From Acidobacteriota bacterium (GTDB lineage: Bacteria > Acidobacteriota > Terriglobia > Terriglobales > Acidobacteriaceae), in the NCBI GenBank assembly GCA_003225455.1, contig QIAB01000034.1:24104-63957 (forward strand): 39,854 nucleotides of DNA, read 5' to 3'. Each line of letters starts with the position of its first letter. Within the stretch, counting starts at the first letter, position 1. Below are positions 11,223 through 16,115 of the stretch, one piece after another. A program made the translations under genes and the position numbers. The notes under the pieces were generated by a model that saw only the letters and a list, made by a program, of their open reading frames with translations, was not told the DNA's origin and made no database searches.

Positions 11223-11256
11223 AAAAACTAGTTTTCACAAATAAAAGGAGTTGAAC

Positions 11257-11928
11257 ATGCGAAAGATTATTGGCGCTGCGTTTGTGTCGCTTGACGGTGT
11301 GATGCAGGCGCCTGGCGGAACGACCGAGGACCCGACCGGCGGGTTTAAGTACAGTGGTTGGCTGCCGCCCGTTGGCGATGGCGATGAAGCCATCGGGAAG
11401 ACGATCGGTGAGCTGTTCAATGGTTCATTCGACCTGCTGCTGGGGCGGAGGACCTACGACATCTTTGCCGCCTTCTGGCCCTATGTCGAGGGCAACGAGA
11501 AGCCGATGGGCGAGATATTCGACCGGGTGCGCAAGTATGTCGTCACGCGCGGCGAGAAGCCGCTGACTTGGCAAAACAGCGAGCGGGTCACAAGCATCGA
11601 AGCTATTGCCCGGGTCAAGCATGGCGATGGACCCGATCTGATTATCCAGGGCAGCAGTACGCTCTATCCGCAGTTGCTCGTGGCAGGCCTGATCGATCGA
11701 TTGATCCTGATGACGTCCCCGGTCGTACTTGGCAGCGGGAAGCGGCTGTTCGGCGAGCATACTCCAGGCTGCGCGCTGCGCATGGTCGACCACATGGTGT
11801 CGGCGCGAGGCAATATAGTTGCCACCTATGAACCTGCCGGCGCAGTTGAGACCGGAAGCTTCGCGAGCCCAGTGCCGAGTGAAGCGGAAATTGCGCGTCG
11901 AAAGGCAATGGCGGACGGGACTTGGTGA
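11257..11928 (+). CDS. Dihydrofolate reductase family protein (RibD C-terminal-like)
   Basis: Member of the broad RibD_C/DHFR-like family, whose proteins are NADPH-dependent reductases of mostly unknown substrate. Visible are the N-terminal SLDGVMQAPGG, LLLGRRTYDIFAAFWP near the middle, LIIQGSSTLYPQLL and PVVLGSGKRLFGE. The ATG at 11257 is chosen because a clean AAAGGAG (11244-11250) lies six bases before it; the in-frame TTG at 11251 is too close to that site. 223 residues is typical. It sits between two copies of the palindromic element (11165-11222 and 11961-12037) and has no operon partner, so it looks like part of an accessory insertion. Confidence 0.88.
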   Translation: MRKIIGAAFVSLDGVMQAPGGTTEDPTGGFKYSGWLPPVGDGDEAIGKTIGELFNGSFDLLLGRRTYDIFAAFWPYVEGNEKPMGEIFDRVRKYVVTRGEKPLTWQNSERVTSIEAIARVKHGDGPDLIIQGSSTLYPQLLVAGLIDRLILMTSPVVLGSGKRLFGEHTPGCALRMVDHMVSARGNIVATYEPAGAVETGSFASPVPSEAEIARRKAMADGTW

Positions 11929-11960
11929 GGCTCACACCGGTCACCGCGCGAGCCGGAAAG

Positions 11961-12037
11961 AACTGGGGACAGACGGGACGTTTCGCTAATTTCCATTCGT
12001 CGAAAGATTGCTGAGCGTTCCGTCTGTCCGCATTTCC
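11961..12037. repeat. GGGACAGACGGGACG-type palindromic element, copy A
   Basis: The left arm GGGGACAGACGGGACGTT (11965-11982) and the right arm GAGCGTTCCGTCTGTCC (12013-12029) pair through GGACAGACGG/CCGTCTGTCC. The centre (TTCGTCGAAA) has its own small stem. Copy B at 12932-13009 is clearly homologous across its whole length. The element resembles REP/BIME-type palindromes; no RAYT transposase gene is present in the window. Confidence 0.82.
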
Positions 12038-12080: not shown

Positions 12081-12896
12081 ATGGAACACGGACTGTGTAA
12101 GATGTGCCACAAAGAGAAAGATCTACAAAAGAGCCATCTTATTCCGAAGTCCGTGCACGAATATTGCAGTGAGGGCGGCTACAAACCAATCGGAATGTTT
12201 GGCGAGATTGTCATGGCCGGTGCACGGCAGTTGAAGCATCCTCTCCTCTGCTTTGAATGCGAGCAGATCTTGAGCGCTGGCGGCGAAGAATGGATGGCGG
12301 ACAAGCTCGCGACGTATGACAAGCAATTCCCCTTCTATGATCTCGTGATACAAGGGCATCTTGCTGATACAACCGCAGGGTCGAAGATTTATTTTGTACG
12401 GGACGTCGCAGCGATCAAGATCAAAGACTTGGTTCACTTTGCGCTTGGCATATTCTTCAGGGCTTCGGTTCATTCATGGCGCGGCGATTCGACCGAACCA
12501 CGCATCGATCTCGGACCCTACGGCGAGGCGATACGTACCTGGCTCCGCGGAGAAAGCGCCTTCCCAGAACATTGCTATCTCGTTGTCCATGTGGCGACCC
12601 CAGAGCGCGCGCATGTGGGACTTTTTCCTCCGTACCTCGCCGAGAAGAAGTCTTGGTGCGTTTATTACACGTACGTATCGGGCGTCCTCTTTATGCTAAA
12701 CGTTGGAAAGAGCACTGGTTTCGGGCCAAAGAACCTCTGCATCTGGAACAATCCTGACCGGCCGATACTTGTTTCTGGCGTTCTTCTCGACAAATTCGAG
12801 GCGATGGTCAAGGAGAAGTTGCAGTCATCGAAGCATACCCAATCCTTCCTTGCCGAAATGGAGGAGGTTGCGAAGAAGAAGCAGACTATGTCCTAA
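12081..12896 (+). CDS. Cys-rich HNH-like / zinc-binding protein of unknown function
   Basis: 271 residues. The N-terminus holds CKMC (6-9), then KSHLIPKSV and, about 45 residues later, LLCFECEQ, giving two CxxC pairs around a histidine followed by IPK. This arrangement resembles zinc-bound HNH-nuclease-like domains (C-x2-C, SHxIPK, C-x2-C). The remainder is mixed alpha/beta without a family I can name. GAGGAG lies four bases before the ATG at 12081. The gene is enclosed by copies A and B of the palindromic element in direct orientation, and the next gene belongs to a phage-linked family. A nuclease role is possible but unproven. Confidence 0.72.
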   Translation: MEHGLCKMCHKEKDLQKSHLIPKSVHEYCSEGGYKPIGMFGEIVMAGARQLKHPLLCFECEQILSAGGEEWMADKLATYDKQFPFYDLVIQGHLADTTAGSKIYFVRDVAAIKIKDLVHFALGIFFRASVHSWRGDSTEPRIDLGPYGEAIRTWLRGESAFPEHCYLVVHVATPERAHVGLFPPYLAEKKSWCVYYTYVSGVLFMLNVGKSTGFGPKNLCIWNNPDRPILVSGVLLDKFEAMVKEKLQSSKHTQSFLAEMEEVAKKKQTMS

Positions 12897-12898
12897 AG

Positions 12899-12941
12899 AA
12901 AAAACTTGGGAAAAAAACTTGGGACAAAAAAACTTGGGACA
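12899..12941 (+). repeat. Stuttered left end of palindromic element B
   Basis: Three successive copies of the element's outer end follow the HNH-like gene: A7-CTTGGG (12899-12911), A7-CTTGGGAC (12912-12926), A7-CTTGGGAC (12927-12941). Each has exactly seven A residues; the third runs on into the full element. The first copy is three residues or fewer shorter than the others, as if repeated aborted copying or slippage had occurred. Confidence 0.85.
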
Positions 12942-13009
12942 GACGGGACGTTCACCAATCTCCGTTCGGTCGAAAAACCGGGAAACGTTTCGTCTGTCCC
13001 CGGTTTCCG
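12932..13009. repeat. GGGACAGACGGGACG-type palindromic element, copy B
   Basis: Left arm TTGGGACAGACGGGACGTT and right arm AAACGTTTCGTCTGTCCCC form a long imperfect hairpin around TCGGTCGAAAAACCGG, itself a small stem. It is the same element as copy A in the same orientation, about 970 bases apart. Confidence 0.85.
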
Positions 13010-13066
13010 GTAGCATCTGACCAAGCAACATTCTGCACCGGTTTGTGTGCGATTCTATGCGGTGGA

Positions 13067-13088
13067 GTATTCTGCAATTAGCGAATAC
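13067..13088. promoter_or_regulatory. Short inverted repeat before the Gp37/Gp68-family gene
   Basis: GTATTC (13067-13072) and GAATAC (13083-13088) form a 6-bp inverted repeat with a 10-base spacer directly before the AAGG ribosome binding site (13089-13092) and the ATG at 13097. It could be an operator or hide the binding site in the mRNA. The short stem makes this weak. Confidence 0.25.
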
Positions 13089-13096
13089 AAGGCGAA

Positions 13097-13846
13097 ATGT
13101 CGGACAAATCAAAAATCGAGTGGACCGATGCCACATGGAATCCTGTGCGAGGTTGCACCAAAATCAGTCCGGGGTGCAAGCATTGCTATGCGGAAGTTTT
13201 CGCAGAGAGATTCCGGGGCGTGCCAGGACACCCATACGAACAGGGATTCGACTTGCGTCTCGTGCCCGAGAAGCTAGAAGAACCATTGAAGTGGAAAACA
13301 CCCCGTTTGATTTTTGTGAATTCGATGAGTGATCTTTTCCAAGTCGGTGTGCCGGATGAGTATATCGCGAAGGTTGCAGCCGTTATGCACACCGCGAAGT
13401 GGCACACGTTCCAAGTTCTTACCAAACGGGCAGAGCGAATGCGCATTCTCCTCAACACCAAGCTGCAATTCGCAGCGCACGCCTCGCACATTTGGTGGGG
13501 CGTGAGCGTTGAAGATCAAAAATATGGAGTGCCGCGCATTGATGAATTGCGCAACGCAAACGTCGCTATGCGGTTCCTCTCTGTGGAGCCGCTTCTGGAG
13601 GATGTCGGGCTCCTTAACTTGTCAGGTATCCATTGGGTCATCGTCGGCGGAGAGAGCGGGCCGGGCGCAAGACCTATGCGCAAAGAATGGGTGCTTTCCA
13701 TCAAGAAGCAATGCCGGGAAAAGGGTGTGCCGTTCTTTTTCAAGCAATGGGGTGGCGTGCGCAAAGCAAAGAACGGGCGCGAATTGAACGGGCGCACGTA
13801 CGATCAAATGCCGCGCTTGTCGCTCGCTGTACAGTTGGGCACCTAA
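13097..13846 (+). CDS. Phage Gp37/Gp68 (DUF5131) family three-Cys-motif protein
   Basis: 249 residues. The N-terminal signature KIEWTDATWNPVRGC with C20, then C27 and C30 (SPGCKHCYAE), is the three-cysteine motif of this family. The spacing is Cx6Cx2C, related to but not the same as the CxxxCxxC of radical SAM enzymes. Further conserved parts are FVNSMSDLF, FQVLTKRAERM, WWGVSVEDQ, FLSVEPLLED and WVIVGGESGPGARPM, which recall a TIM-barrel Fe-S enzyme such as photoproduct-lyase-like proteins. The reaction is unknown. The stop overlaps that of tcmP on the other strand by CTAA (13843-13846). Pairing with TcmP is a known genomic association of the family and occurs in phages and bacterial islands. 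Confidence 0.93.
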   Translation: MSDKSKIEWTDATWNPVRGCTKISPGCKHCYAEVFAERFRGVPGHPYEQGFDLRLVPEKLEEPLKWKTPRLIFVNSMSDLFQVGVPDEYIAKVAAVMHTAKWHTFQVLTKRAERMRILLNTKLQFAAHASHIWWGVSVEDQKYGVPRIDELRNANVAMRFLSVEPLLEDVGLLNLSGIHWVIVGGESGPGARPMRKEWVLSIKKQCREKGVPFFFKQWGGVRKAKNGRELNGRTYDQMPRLSLAVQLGT

Positions 13847-14934
13847 CGAAACTTTAATTGCGTTCCCTCTGGATAGGTGCCCGATCTGCGATTTGGTTTC
13901 GGATTCGTGACGCTGACCAACACGTCTTTCTCCATCTCGGCTACCACGTGCCTCACGTGTGAGCGTAGAAAACCCACATACTCGATCACCCAATCGCACA
14001 AAACCTCAAACTCGATTTGCACACGCCCGAATTTTTGAATGAGAATTTGGCGCAACAAGTCATAATCAGGTGCCTCTTCAAAGAGCGGAATCTGCTTCTT
14101 GGACTCAGTGAAGTCTGAAAACTGAAATTCGCCGCTTGGAGCAGCTTTCCACATAGTTTCCAGCATGGCCTCTGTGCCTTTCAGACTGTTCGTGCCAAAA
14201 AAGAGGAAATAATCGGGAGCATTGTTTTTGTTCAGCATCAAGAAGGCATGCACATACCGAGCAACCGTCTTTAGCTGATCGCGGTACAAATCGTGAATCG
14301 CATAGAACCGGCTGATGGGCGCGGTGATATTCAGAATATTGCGCCACTCAGGAGTGCCGAACAGTTCATCGAAATGTGCTGCGAACTCTGGGTTAGAGAG
14401 GAACCTATTGATTTCTCCATACATGAAGTTAACTAAAACTTCAGACTTAGGGTATCTCAATAGGCGAGCAATCGTTGTGAAAGGCGTTTGCGAAAATCCA
14501 AACGGATCAACAAACGCCAATGTTGGACCTCGGCGCTCCTCTTGCTCGTCTAGTTGCGCGAAAATCTCTGCGAGTTGGCCATTGAATTTGCCGAGGATTG
14601 GTCGGAACTTGATATTGCTCGGCAAAGTGGGCTTAGTACGGTCCAACACTCCCACCAGGTGTGTATAACGATCCTCATGGCTCTCGACGAATAGACACAC
14701 CAACTCACACGAGGGTCTCAGCACATGGTCACGAGCGGCCTTGAGTATTACGAGCGGAGAGCCATCTTCGCCTTTGCTGTACTCTCCTGGCCCGGCAAAA
14801 GCATCCACATAGAGTAGGCGCGAGTTATAGCGCCCCAAGATTGGCAACCAAGCTTGAAAGTATCTCCGCAAAATCTCGTGTTTCTTCGCCGTATGCGGTT
14901 CGATGTCCCATACCGTCTTGGTAACTCTGCCCAT
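13843..14934 (-). CDS. tcmP: Three-Cys-motif partner protein TcmP
   Basis: 363 residues. The N-terminus has the usual W-x-x-x-P-HT-x-KH-x-IL-x-x-Y pattern (WDIEPHTAKKHEILRRY), then YVDAFAGPGEY (D44 to G50) and FVDPFGFSQTP with D143-P144-F145-G146. These look like the ligand loop and DPxG motif of a Rossmann methyltransferase-like fold, although the biochemical role is unknown. The protein is cytoplasmic. It is defined as the partner of the Gp37/Gp68 three-Cys-motif proteins, and here the two genes converge and share their stop region, so they are not one transcript. AGAGG lies 11 bases before the ATG. Confidence 0.92.
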   Translation of the reverse strand: MGRVTKTVWDIEPHTAKKHEILRRYFQAWLPILGRYNSRLLYVDAFAGPGEYSKGEDGSPLVILKAARDHVLRPSCELVCLFVESHEDRYTHLVGVLDRTKPTLPSNIKFRPILGKFNGQLAEIFAQLDEQEERRGPTLAFVDPFGFSQTPFTTIARLLRYPKSEVLVNFMYGEINRFLSNPEFAAHFDELFGTPEWRNILNITAPISRFYAIHDLYRDQLKTVARYVHAFLMLNKNNAPDYFLFFGTNSLKGTEAMLETMWKAAPSGEFQFSDFTESKKQIPLFEEAPDYDLLRQILIQKFGRVQIEFEVLCDWVIEYVGFLRSHVRHVVAEMEKDVLVSVTNPKPNRRSGTYPEGTQLKFR

Positions 14935-15131
14935 GGCTTACTAACCTCTGCTCACCGTCTTATCATGCACCACGCATGAAGAAAAAGCGAAATTGCAGCA
15001 CAAATTGTGCATAGCCTGTGGGTTGGAGCCGAAACCTGTGGAGGGCTGTGCACAATTCTCGGTGCATCGCCCGGTGTGGTGCGGACGGCGGGCTTTACGC
15101 TCTTGCGATTTCAGCCAAGGCGAACTATTTT

Positions 15132-15402
15132 TTATTTCAATTCCTCGAGCCGCCTCGCGAGGAAACGGCGCTCCGGCTCCTGCTGAACCTTGCCAGTCAA
15201 AATCAGGGCGAGCGCCTTCTCATACGAAGCACAGGCCTCCGGAAGCCGTCCAGCCTGCGACACAAATCCCCACGGGCAGAGTGCGCGAGGTGACAATTGG
15301 CGAGTTCGTCGTTTTTGCGCGCCAGCAAGCCATCGATGAGACGAAGACCCTCCGGACATTCGCAATGGCGACGGCAACTGCGCGGTTGAATACAAATCAG
15401 CC
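15132..15402 (-). pseudogene. Decayed C-terminal remnant of an ECF sigma factor (TPR-tailed type)
   Basis: Three minus-strand frames together give the conserved tail of sigma factors with a TPR-like C-terminal domain. From the upstream side these are FNRAVAVAIAN, then ECPEGLRLIDGLLARKNDELA with HLAHSARGDLCRRL, then PEACASYEKALAL and ERRFLARRLEELK before the stop at 15132. At least two frameshifts separate them, and sigma regions 2 and 4 are absent. Such sigma genes (ECF42 type) often sit next to small YCII or DHFR-like enzymes, and a DHFR-family gene lies directly upstream here. In the surrounding 14935-15479 I see nothing else; 14935-15131 holds no recognisable feature. Confidence 0.7.
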
Positions 15403-15478: not shown

Positions 15479-16028
<550 letters not shown>

Positions 16029-16115
16029 TACGTAGGCAGGAATAATCGTTTTGGCCATTCCATCGCCCGGCAGTATACGCCCAACCGTGCCGATAATTCC
16101 TGCGACGACAAACGC

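Follow-up and report, generated by a model that had tools for sequence, protein, structure and literature searches.

A convergent DUF5131-TcmP gene pair from an Acidobacteriaceae genome as a putative SOS-induced radical-SAM and methyltransferase module

In a stretch of 39,854 nucleotides from an Acidobacteriota bacterium of the family Acidobacteriaceae (assembly GCA_003225455.1, contig QIAB01000034.1, positions 24,104 to 63,957 of the forward strand; hereafter the window), a gene encoding a DUF5131 protein (Gp37/Gp68) and a gene encoding TcmP lie tail to tail. Both families are widespread in bacteria, archaea, plasmids, and phages, and no function has been found for either of them. The analysis suggests that the pair forms a compact, mobile, SOS-induced module of a radical S-adenosylmethionine (SAM) enzyme and a methyltransferase, which would act on nucleic-acid bases, most likely those of DNA, and probably serve repair or processing; the probability of this reading is put at roughly 0.5. 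Three lines converge on such a damage-induced, base-acting pair, namely the replacement of DUF5131 by other partners, the predicted folds, and boxes matching the host group. The pairing of both families is already known (NCBIfam TcmP; PADLOC candidate PDC-M30), and as a PDC-M30-type pair the locus is ordinary. Not ordinary, and new here, are the interchangeable radical-SAM partners of TcmP and the host-matched LexA-type boxes.

In the proposed mechanism, DNA damage would lift LexA from the promoter of the first gene, which is the DUF5131 gene in the window. DUF5131 would be a divergent radical-SAM-type enzyme with the fold of spore photoproduct lyase (SPL), in which three invariant cysteines would coordinate a [4Fe-4S] cluster. 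Cleavage of SAM by this cluster would then produce a radical on a lesion or base. TcmP would be a SAM-dependent methyltransferase resembling RlmJ with a winged helix of the DNA-binding type. Its role may be to locate the target base, to flip it, or to methylate its exocyclic amino group, either in preparation for the radical step or following it. Co-occurrence, radical-SAM replacement of DUF5131, predicted folds, conserved residues, and the LexA-type boxes present at some loci form the computed basis, from which we infer LexA binding, the cluster, the chemistry, DNA as the substrate, and repair as the purpose. If true, a radical-chemistry branch would be added to the SOS response, the phage gene Gp37/Gp68 would be explained, and a listed defence candidate would move towards DNA repair, or the two roles would overlap. 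The pair is encoded as follows:

13097..13846, + strand: DUF5131 (Gp37/Gp68) gene, 249 amino acids (aa), predicted radical-SAM-type barrel (PF07505, PDC-M30B, AF2 model, SPL as best PDB match)
13843..14934, - strand: TcmP gene, long form, 363 aa, RlmJ-like methyltransferase domain and C-terminal winged helix (TIGR04474, PDC-M30A, AF2, VIA)
13843..13846: CTAA, overlapping stops of DUF5131 and TcmP (coordinates of the open reading frames, ORFs); a 4-nt overlap recurs at other loci

Pairing of TcmP and replacement of its partner

The tail-to-tail arrangement with a shared CTAA and both family labels, as given in the original prediction made from the sequence alone, were confirmed. The DUF5131 protein matches PF07505 over the whole model (E 2e-99, 332.4 bits; gathering cut-off 28.9 bits), and residues 13-264 of TcmP match TIGR04474 (E 1.6e-60, 205.3 bits; curated cut-off 53 bits). 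The same two genes make up the PADLOC candidate PDC-M30 (and PDC-M41), and both components are adjacent in the window, with E-values of 6.7e-64 for TcmP against the PDC-M30A profile and 8.5e-107 for DUF5131 against PDC-M30B. In the PADLOC library this candidate has no mechanism, whereas the promoters described below point to regulation by the SOS system for some members of the family.

That the two families occur together, as stated in the original prediction, is borne out by the samples. In a phylum sample of 396 genomes, searched at E 0.001, TcmP was found in 63 genomes (55 over the cut-off) and DUF5131 in 98 (83 over the cut-off); in a sample of 100 relatives, the numbers were 19 and 28. 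When all 94 TcmP places from both samples are pooled, fragments and weak matches included, a DUF5131 place lies within 1.5 kb in 79 and is not near in 15. The adjacent places have TcmP first in 43 cases, DUF5131 first in 29, a convergent order in 4, and a divergent order in 3, so that 72 of 79 are co-directional. A further set of named species comprises the best 80 loci, out of at least 472 confirmed relatives in bacteria and archaea, obtained with a long-TcmP query. Here DUF5131 lies within 3 kb of TcmP at 63 loci, with DUF5131 first (D>T) at 31, TcmP first at 17, convergent genes at 15, and divergent genes at none (co-directional 48/63); the other 17 loci lack DUF5131. In a tree of the 80 loci and the window, the convergent label (16 rows) requires 6 changes, at least 5 of them forced by well supported branches. 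Gene order thus flips repeatedly and linkage stays. The window falls within a convergent clade of four rows, together with two Acidobacteriaceae and one other bacterium.

The convergent layout is one recurrent variant or rearrangement, and most relatives are co-directional. The layout from which it had been concluded earlier that the pair is not simply one operon is thus true locally only. At the 15 convergent loci, the overlap of the stops is exactly 4 nt long in four cases and 11-34 nt long in five more. Seven annotated phage and plasmid regions include five convergent pairs with a 4-nt overlap, one divergent pair, and one with a radical-SAM partner. Joint inheritance is further indicated by the protein distances of 60 pairs, which correlate with r 0.44 (largest of 2000 permutations 0.24), DUF5131 being the slower partner (median identity 0.53 vs 0.41 for TcmP). 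No third conserved gene was seen among the neighbors at the 80 loci, the largest clusters covering 12, 6, and 4 loci at scattered positions. Two TcmP genes accompany a single DUF5131 gene on a Rhodococcus plasmid (L203) and at L198 (G011), and two TcmP genes in a row without DUF5131 occur in Ktedonospora (L142), which looks as if several TcmPs shared one radical-SAM partner. A longer form of DUF5131 with an open frame of 385-468 aa is present on five contigs (G023:C75, G044:C11, G274:C24, G246:C34, G477:C93), and no TcmP place was found on the same contig stretch in the sample scans.

At 13 of the 17 named loci without DUF5131, a radical-SAM gene lies beside TcmP instead. Ten of these genes encode SPL-like proteins (L113, L114, L116, L118, L133, L156, L164, L179, L180, L182) and three belong to a family bridging DUF5131 and the SPL-like group (L120, L140, L185). 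Ten of the 13 partners were scanned against Pfam, the remaining three (L114, L164, L180) being aligned with the others. Seven pass the SPL cut-off, and the three bridging proteins pass that of Radical_SAM (PF04055) and additionally hit PF07505 with scores short of its cut-off. Profile alignments connect the bridging family with DUF5131 (E 1.3e-5, cysteines in register) and with the SPL-like group (E 2.9e-5). On the tree, 3 changes account for the SPL label, and at least 2 of these are forced. On a Halopiger plasmid, TcmP likewise comes after a gene annotated as 'radical SAM protein'. At the other four loci without DUF5131, TcmP lies at a contig end (L151, L166) or has no radical-SAM gene beside it among the called ORFs (L142 and L154, both Ktedonobacteria). 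This replacement is the strongest sequence evidence that DUF5131 probably does the job of a radical-SAM enzyme.

Predicted folds and conserved residues

The residues and domains on which the predicted chemistry would depend are located as follows:

13154..13186, + strand: Cys20-x6-Cys27-x2-Cys30 of DUF5131, loop between strand 1 and helix 1 of the model (alignment, DSSP)
14881..14883, - strand: TcmP Lys18, matching the catalytic Lys18 of RlmJ in number and neighborhood (alignment; RlmJ mutagenesis in PMC3814359)
14497..14508, - strand: TcmP motif IV, Asp143-Pro-Phe-Gly (RlmJ: DPPY; alignment of 99)
13846..14064, - strand: C-terminal winged-helix part of TcmP, residues 291-363 (model secondary structure H-E-H-H-E-E)

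Structure prediction of each protein, as proposed in the original prediction, yielded AF2 models for DUF5131 (90 sequences, pLDDT 91.9, pTM 0.89) and TcmP (99 sequences, pLDDT 91.4, pTM 0.89) whose best matches in VIA are SPL and RlmJ, respectively. In DUF5131, the residues C20, C27, C30, H103, K110, R111, E164, GGES184-187, K216, and Q217 are invariant in 90/90 relatives and C206 is kept in 86/90. Non-conserved cysteines would have refuted the original prediction; since they are invariant throughout, the Cx6Cx2C motif is not a chance occurrence. The model is a partial TIM barrel with the cluster loop after strand 1, as in radical-SAM folds. Foldseek places SPL first (4fhg, E 1.6e-3), no match having an E-value below 0.001. 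VIA places SPL first with a Z of 13.5, followed by SuiB (12.0) and viperin (11.7), and the first 27 entries are radical-SAM proteins; families missing from the VIA lists were not counted as evidence. By sequence profile, DUF5131 found nothing in PDB at E 5. The three conserved cysteines agree with membership in the radical-SAM superfamily and their spacing deviates from the canonical CX3CX2C; spacing variants exist in this superfamily.

SPL (PF20903; PDB 4fhf) is thus the nearest fold of DUF5131, with a Z of 13.5 and 3.0 A over 195 residues, and SPL-like proteins can occupy the place of DUF5131 beside TcmP. It differs from DUF5131 in that the latter lacks an SPL profile match, has no known lesion as substrate, and shares only 12-13% identity. 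DUF5131 may work like SPL without being filed in the SPL family. A weak match to Radical SAM mobile pair protein A (TIGR04471; 81 bits, residues 15-217) stays far below the cut-off of that family (355 bits), of which DUF5131 is not a member.

For TcmP, single-sequence searches detected no Pfam family, and nothing in PDB scored better than E 0.14. Its model is closest in VIA to the DUF519/RlmJ group (Z 17.5-16.6), followed by a group at 14.6, and the best PDB match of its sequence profile is also RlmJ (E 0.09), over motif I and the GSPL stretch. Lys18 is present in 98/98 non-gap rows of the 99 aligned TcmP proteins, D44, G48, and D143 in 99/99, and GSP58-60 in 93-94 of 99. TcmP hence retains two residues typical of the RlmJ family, Lys18 and, in motif IV, the catalytic Asp. 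Motif IV otherwise reads mostly DPFG (P144 97/99, F145 84/99, G146 93/99), a motif also known from Trm1, an N2-guanine methyltransferase. Proline at position 145 occurs in 0/99 proteins, which differs from the DPPY/F of RlmJ. A GMT-wHTH domain (PF22560) was recognized in 71/99 members and was not detected in the TcmP of the window at E 0.01.

RlmJ, a methyltransferase specific for m6A2030 of 23S rRNA, requires Y4, H6, K18, and D164 (PMC3814359). The likeness of TcmP to this enzyme (6qe5, Z 17.2, 3.1 A, 207 residues) extends to Lys18, motif I, the GSP stretch, and the catalytic Asp. In contrast to RlmJ, TcmP has DPFG instead of DPPY and an extra winged helix, matches no Pfam family, and lacks the long insert of RlmJ in the profile alignment; moreover, RlmJ is not the first match in Foldseek. 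TcmP is therefore not filed as RlmJ. Taken together, folds, profiles, and partner exchange bear out computationally what had been proposed from the sequence, namely a SAM or Fe-S type enzyme with a Rossmann partner resembling methyltransferases, both probably acting on nucleic acid.

An alternative reading is that TcmP, like RlmJ, methylates a base in RNA and that DUF5131 adds a radical step of the kind performed by RlmN and Cfr in RNA modification, which would tune translation under stress. In its favor, the closest VIA fold of TcmP acts on rRNA (PMC3814359), and Trm1 and Trm5 are found among the further VIA entries. However, TcmP carries a winged helix, SPL as the nearest fold of DUF5131 acts on DNA (PMC5368176), the promoters of part of the loci contain SOS-type boxes, and the distribution is patchy, with TcmP in 63/396 genomes. 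A role in RNA modification is thus considered unlikely.

LexA-type boxes and the link to DNA damage

Upstream of the pair, boxes of the LexA type of the respective host groups were found at some loci. Of the 27 D>T loci that could be tested in the named set, 15 have GTTCN7GTTC, the alphaproteobacterial LexA box consensus (PMC12700426, PMC3091678), 17-35 nt before the DUF5131 start, compared to 7/313 other genes of the same loci (Fisher 4e-14) and 8/894 in all loci. All 15 are Pseudomonadota by record title or tree label, and L128 gains the box if the start is set at a later ATG. Upstream of TcmP it was found in 0/76 cases (groups of 31, 17, 15, 10, and 3). GAACN4GTTC, the core of the Gram-positive type, precedes DUF5131 at 5/15 convergent loci, three times within 50 nt (controls 3/894), and precedes TcmP at 1/15. 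When five DUF5131 promoters of phages and plasmids were inspected by eye, it was seen only in that of Rhodococcus. Exact copies of the E. coli-type SOS box numbered 0.

The window contains neither GTTCN7GTTC nor GAACN4GTTC. Its DUF5131 promoter instead carries a direct repeat, TTCGCN6TTCGC, which overlaps with an inverted one:

13081..13096: candidate LexA/SOS operator TTCGCN6TTCGC (+ strand GCGAAN6GCGAA), abutting the DUF5131 start codon; sole copy in the window
13067..13088: perfect inverted repeat GTATTCN10GAATAC, overlapping the candidate operator; exact copy unique in the genome, 1 mismatch in the nearest relative

TTCGCN6TTCGC also precedes lexA, recA, and a RecA-like gene of the same genome, with one site per locus. 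In 58 loci on 53 contigs (202 kb), hand-picked from 109 loci of the samples, 17 sites were counted, 14 of which we place at the 5' end of the first gene of the pair (binomial 4.5e-20); these include G006, G014, and G025, which were assigned by position after the script had left them unmarked or inside the called start. By a hand count of the same rows, 12/18 pairs of the window's own family have the site. The inverted repeat was considered as a regulon box and rejected, with one exact copy in the genome and 7 copies with up to one mismatch vs 3 for the control; the overlapping direct repeat is preferred. A box of the host group thus precedes the first gene in D>T loci of Pseudomonadota, in some convergent loci, and in loci of the window's phylum. 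SOS control is supported for part of the family, not all of it, and LexA is predicted to bind at these sites.

The literature contains some hints in the same direction. In Mycobacterium tuberculosis, Rv2735c comes after recA-recX and is partly co-transcribed with recA (PMC3062782). In BCG, recX is BCG_2749c and BCG_2748c has a TcmP domain (PMC7387457), so that Rv2735c would correspond to TcmP by gene order. Rv2734, Rv2735c, recX, and recA appear as one cluster of mitomycin C-changed genes (PMC5057432); in the main text of a second mitomycin C study, neither gene name occurs (PMC8151990). A radical-SAM gene, its kind not given, is contained in the LexA regulon table of Streptomyces venezuelae (PMC9380542). 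Radical-SAM proteins resembling SplB have likewise been connected with SOS operons (PMC3765255) and represent SPL-type repair enzymes in SOS neighborhoods; the passages of that paper considered here mention neither TcmP nor DUF5131. No stated SOS control or function of TcmP-DUF5131 was found in the largely open-access literature that was searched. Within the window's own family, one locus (G010:C37; L219/L025) has an open DUF5131 gene directly beside recA and divergent from it, together with a frame-broken TcmP gene, and TTCGCN6TTCGC lies between recA and DUF5131. Genes annotated as ImmA/IrrE metallo-endopeptidases or metallo-proteases were observed near the pair on a plasmid of M. chubuense (L202) and in Gordonia phages (L201, L205); a zincin-like metallopeptidase is named alongside SOS components in PMC3765255.

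Several observations weigh against a damage-induced, DNA-acting module. Regarding the promoters, 12/27 D>T loci lack GTTCN7GTTC, and none of the tested LexA-type boxes occurs in exact form at TcmP-first (0/17), SPL-partner (0/10), or bridging-partner (0/3) loci. In a tighter search window, GAACN4GTTC is found exactly in 3/15 convergent loci vs 4/898 controls and with one mismatch in 7/15 vs 55/898. The box at 13081-13096 was found by comparison with the lexA promoter after other motifs had been tried, and 0.34 copies are expected per window. Rv2734 is only presumed to be the DUF5131 partner. Regarding the proteins, the DUF5131 of the window lacks the canonical CX3CX2C and matches neither PF04055 at E 0.001 nor PF20903. 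DUF5131 and the SPL-like partners give no significant result when their profiles are compared directly; their connection runs via the bridging family and the fold. Foldseek does not have RlmJ among the 50 listed matches of TcmP, histamine methyltransferase leading and other methyltransferases ranking first, and since motif IV differs from that of RlmJ, even methyl transfer by TcmP can only be presumed. Finally, DUF5131 often occurs without long TcmP, in 98 vs 63 genomes and, in single-sequence searches, in 161 vs 10 phage records.

A more specific version of the module reading, tentative and less probable than its general form, combines the TcmP-DUF5131 pair with the TcmP-SPL-like variants of archaea and Chloroflexota into an SOS-induced system of a new kind for direct-reversal DNA repair or base processing. 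In this system, the RlmJ-like fold would recognize or methylate a base, an interchangeable radical-SAM enzyme would perform the radical chemistry, and phages and plasmids would spread the pair.

Mobility, defence context, and surroundings

A comparison of the window with its nearest relative delimits the pair as a unit:

13011..14937: 1.9-kb block in common with the nearest relative, 85% DNA identity, unrelated flanks (DNA comparison, G+C 0.510)

Nothing adjoining is shared. This counts as one comparison, because the genomes of L110 and G006 are nearly identical. The G+C of the pair (0.510) is below a mean of 0.562, and only 3/190 overlapping windows are lower. The block is presumably a compact unit that moves. 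'Accessory', as the surroundings were originally called, agrees with the low G+C and with the end of similarity at 13011 and 14937; an island was not shown. Single-sequence searches identified DUF5131 relatives in 161 of 50,697 phage records and long TcmP in 10, all from Gordonia. TcmP relatives occur in 58/72,556 plasmid records, and 7 of 11 loci on viral contigs have DUF5131 next to TcmP. In the Gordonia phages Easley and Bosnia, the pair lies between the immunity repressor and the integrase.

These findings would also fit a selfish function, in which the pair promotes the maintenance or excision of a prophage, plasmid, or island after DNA damage without contributing to repair in the host. 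Carriage by phages and plasmids and the block with unrelated flanks, as one independent comparison, favor it, and SOS boxes would suit a timing of the prophage type. Phage_integrase, however, is matched by only 3/122 adjoining genes, and archaeal copies with a swapped partner exist (L114, L116, L133, L185), so that we regard this explanation as the least probable of those weighed.

In a serious rival explanation, the pair serves anti-phage defence: it would modify or damage phage nucleic acid or mark self DNA, and defence islands and prophages would carry it. This reading applies most of all to the TcmP-first group, even if its overall probability is rather low. It had been raised in the original prediction, and it is backed by the PDC-M30A/B matches and by the position between repressor and integrase in two Gordonia phages. 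The proposed comparison of neighborhoods was performed with 122 of 145 adjoining genes (110-1320 aa, 76 loci with a known partner) and a random 122 of 285 far genes at least 6 places off. At E 1e-10, the adjoining genes matched 205 PADLOC models and the far genes 71, a contrast that counts models and not genes and is suggestive only. Among the 25 top matches listed for adjoining genes are HmaA/B/C, MTase_III, REase_MTase_IIG, REase_I, DpdF, DrmD, DarG, and SIR2; those listed for far genes are chiefly PD-T4-6 models in 3 members. In the literature, PDC-M30 is predicted in 32 Pseudomonas aeruginosa strains, 68.8% of them resistant (PMC10855318), and one listed unit contains a TcmP together with hna, a defence gene (PMC12445080). 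Against defence stand the SOS-type boxes in part of the loci, which point to control by DNA damage, the scatter of neighboring genes with no recurrent third gene, and a literature search in which no experiment on the pair was found.

The immediate neighbors had been described as palindromic elements, an HNH-like gene, and a sigma-factor remnant. Two palindromic elements of about 73 nt (11957-12029 and 12927-13006, 71-78% alike) indeed bracket an HNH-like ORF (12081-12896), which has no Pfam match and only PHROG matches of unknown function (best 3.9e-11). One more partial copy of the element is present on contig C83, and the elements together with the ORF may form a small, separate mobile unit. 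The label of the sigma-factor remnant (15132-15395) was not confirmed, as this ORF has no Pfam match. For the flanking BcsC-like and GH5 proteins, the searched relatives (61 genomes including the window's own) contained nothing closely similar. The genome of the window (G000, 4.99 Mb) encodes a second, divergent TcmP-DUF5131 pair on another contig, and its nearest named relative is an Acidobacteriaceae metagenome-assembled genome with a 91% identical TcmP. Two RibD_C (reductase-like) ORFs, recognized by Pfam at 11251-11928 and 15480-16058, lie on either side of the stretch containing the HNH-like ORF and the pair.

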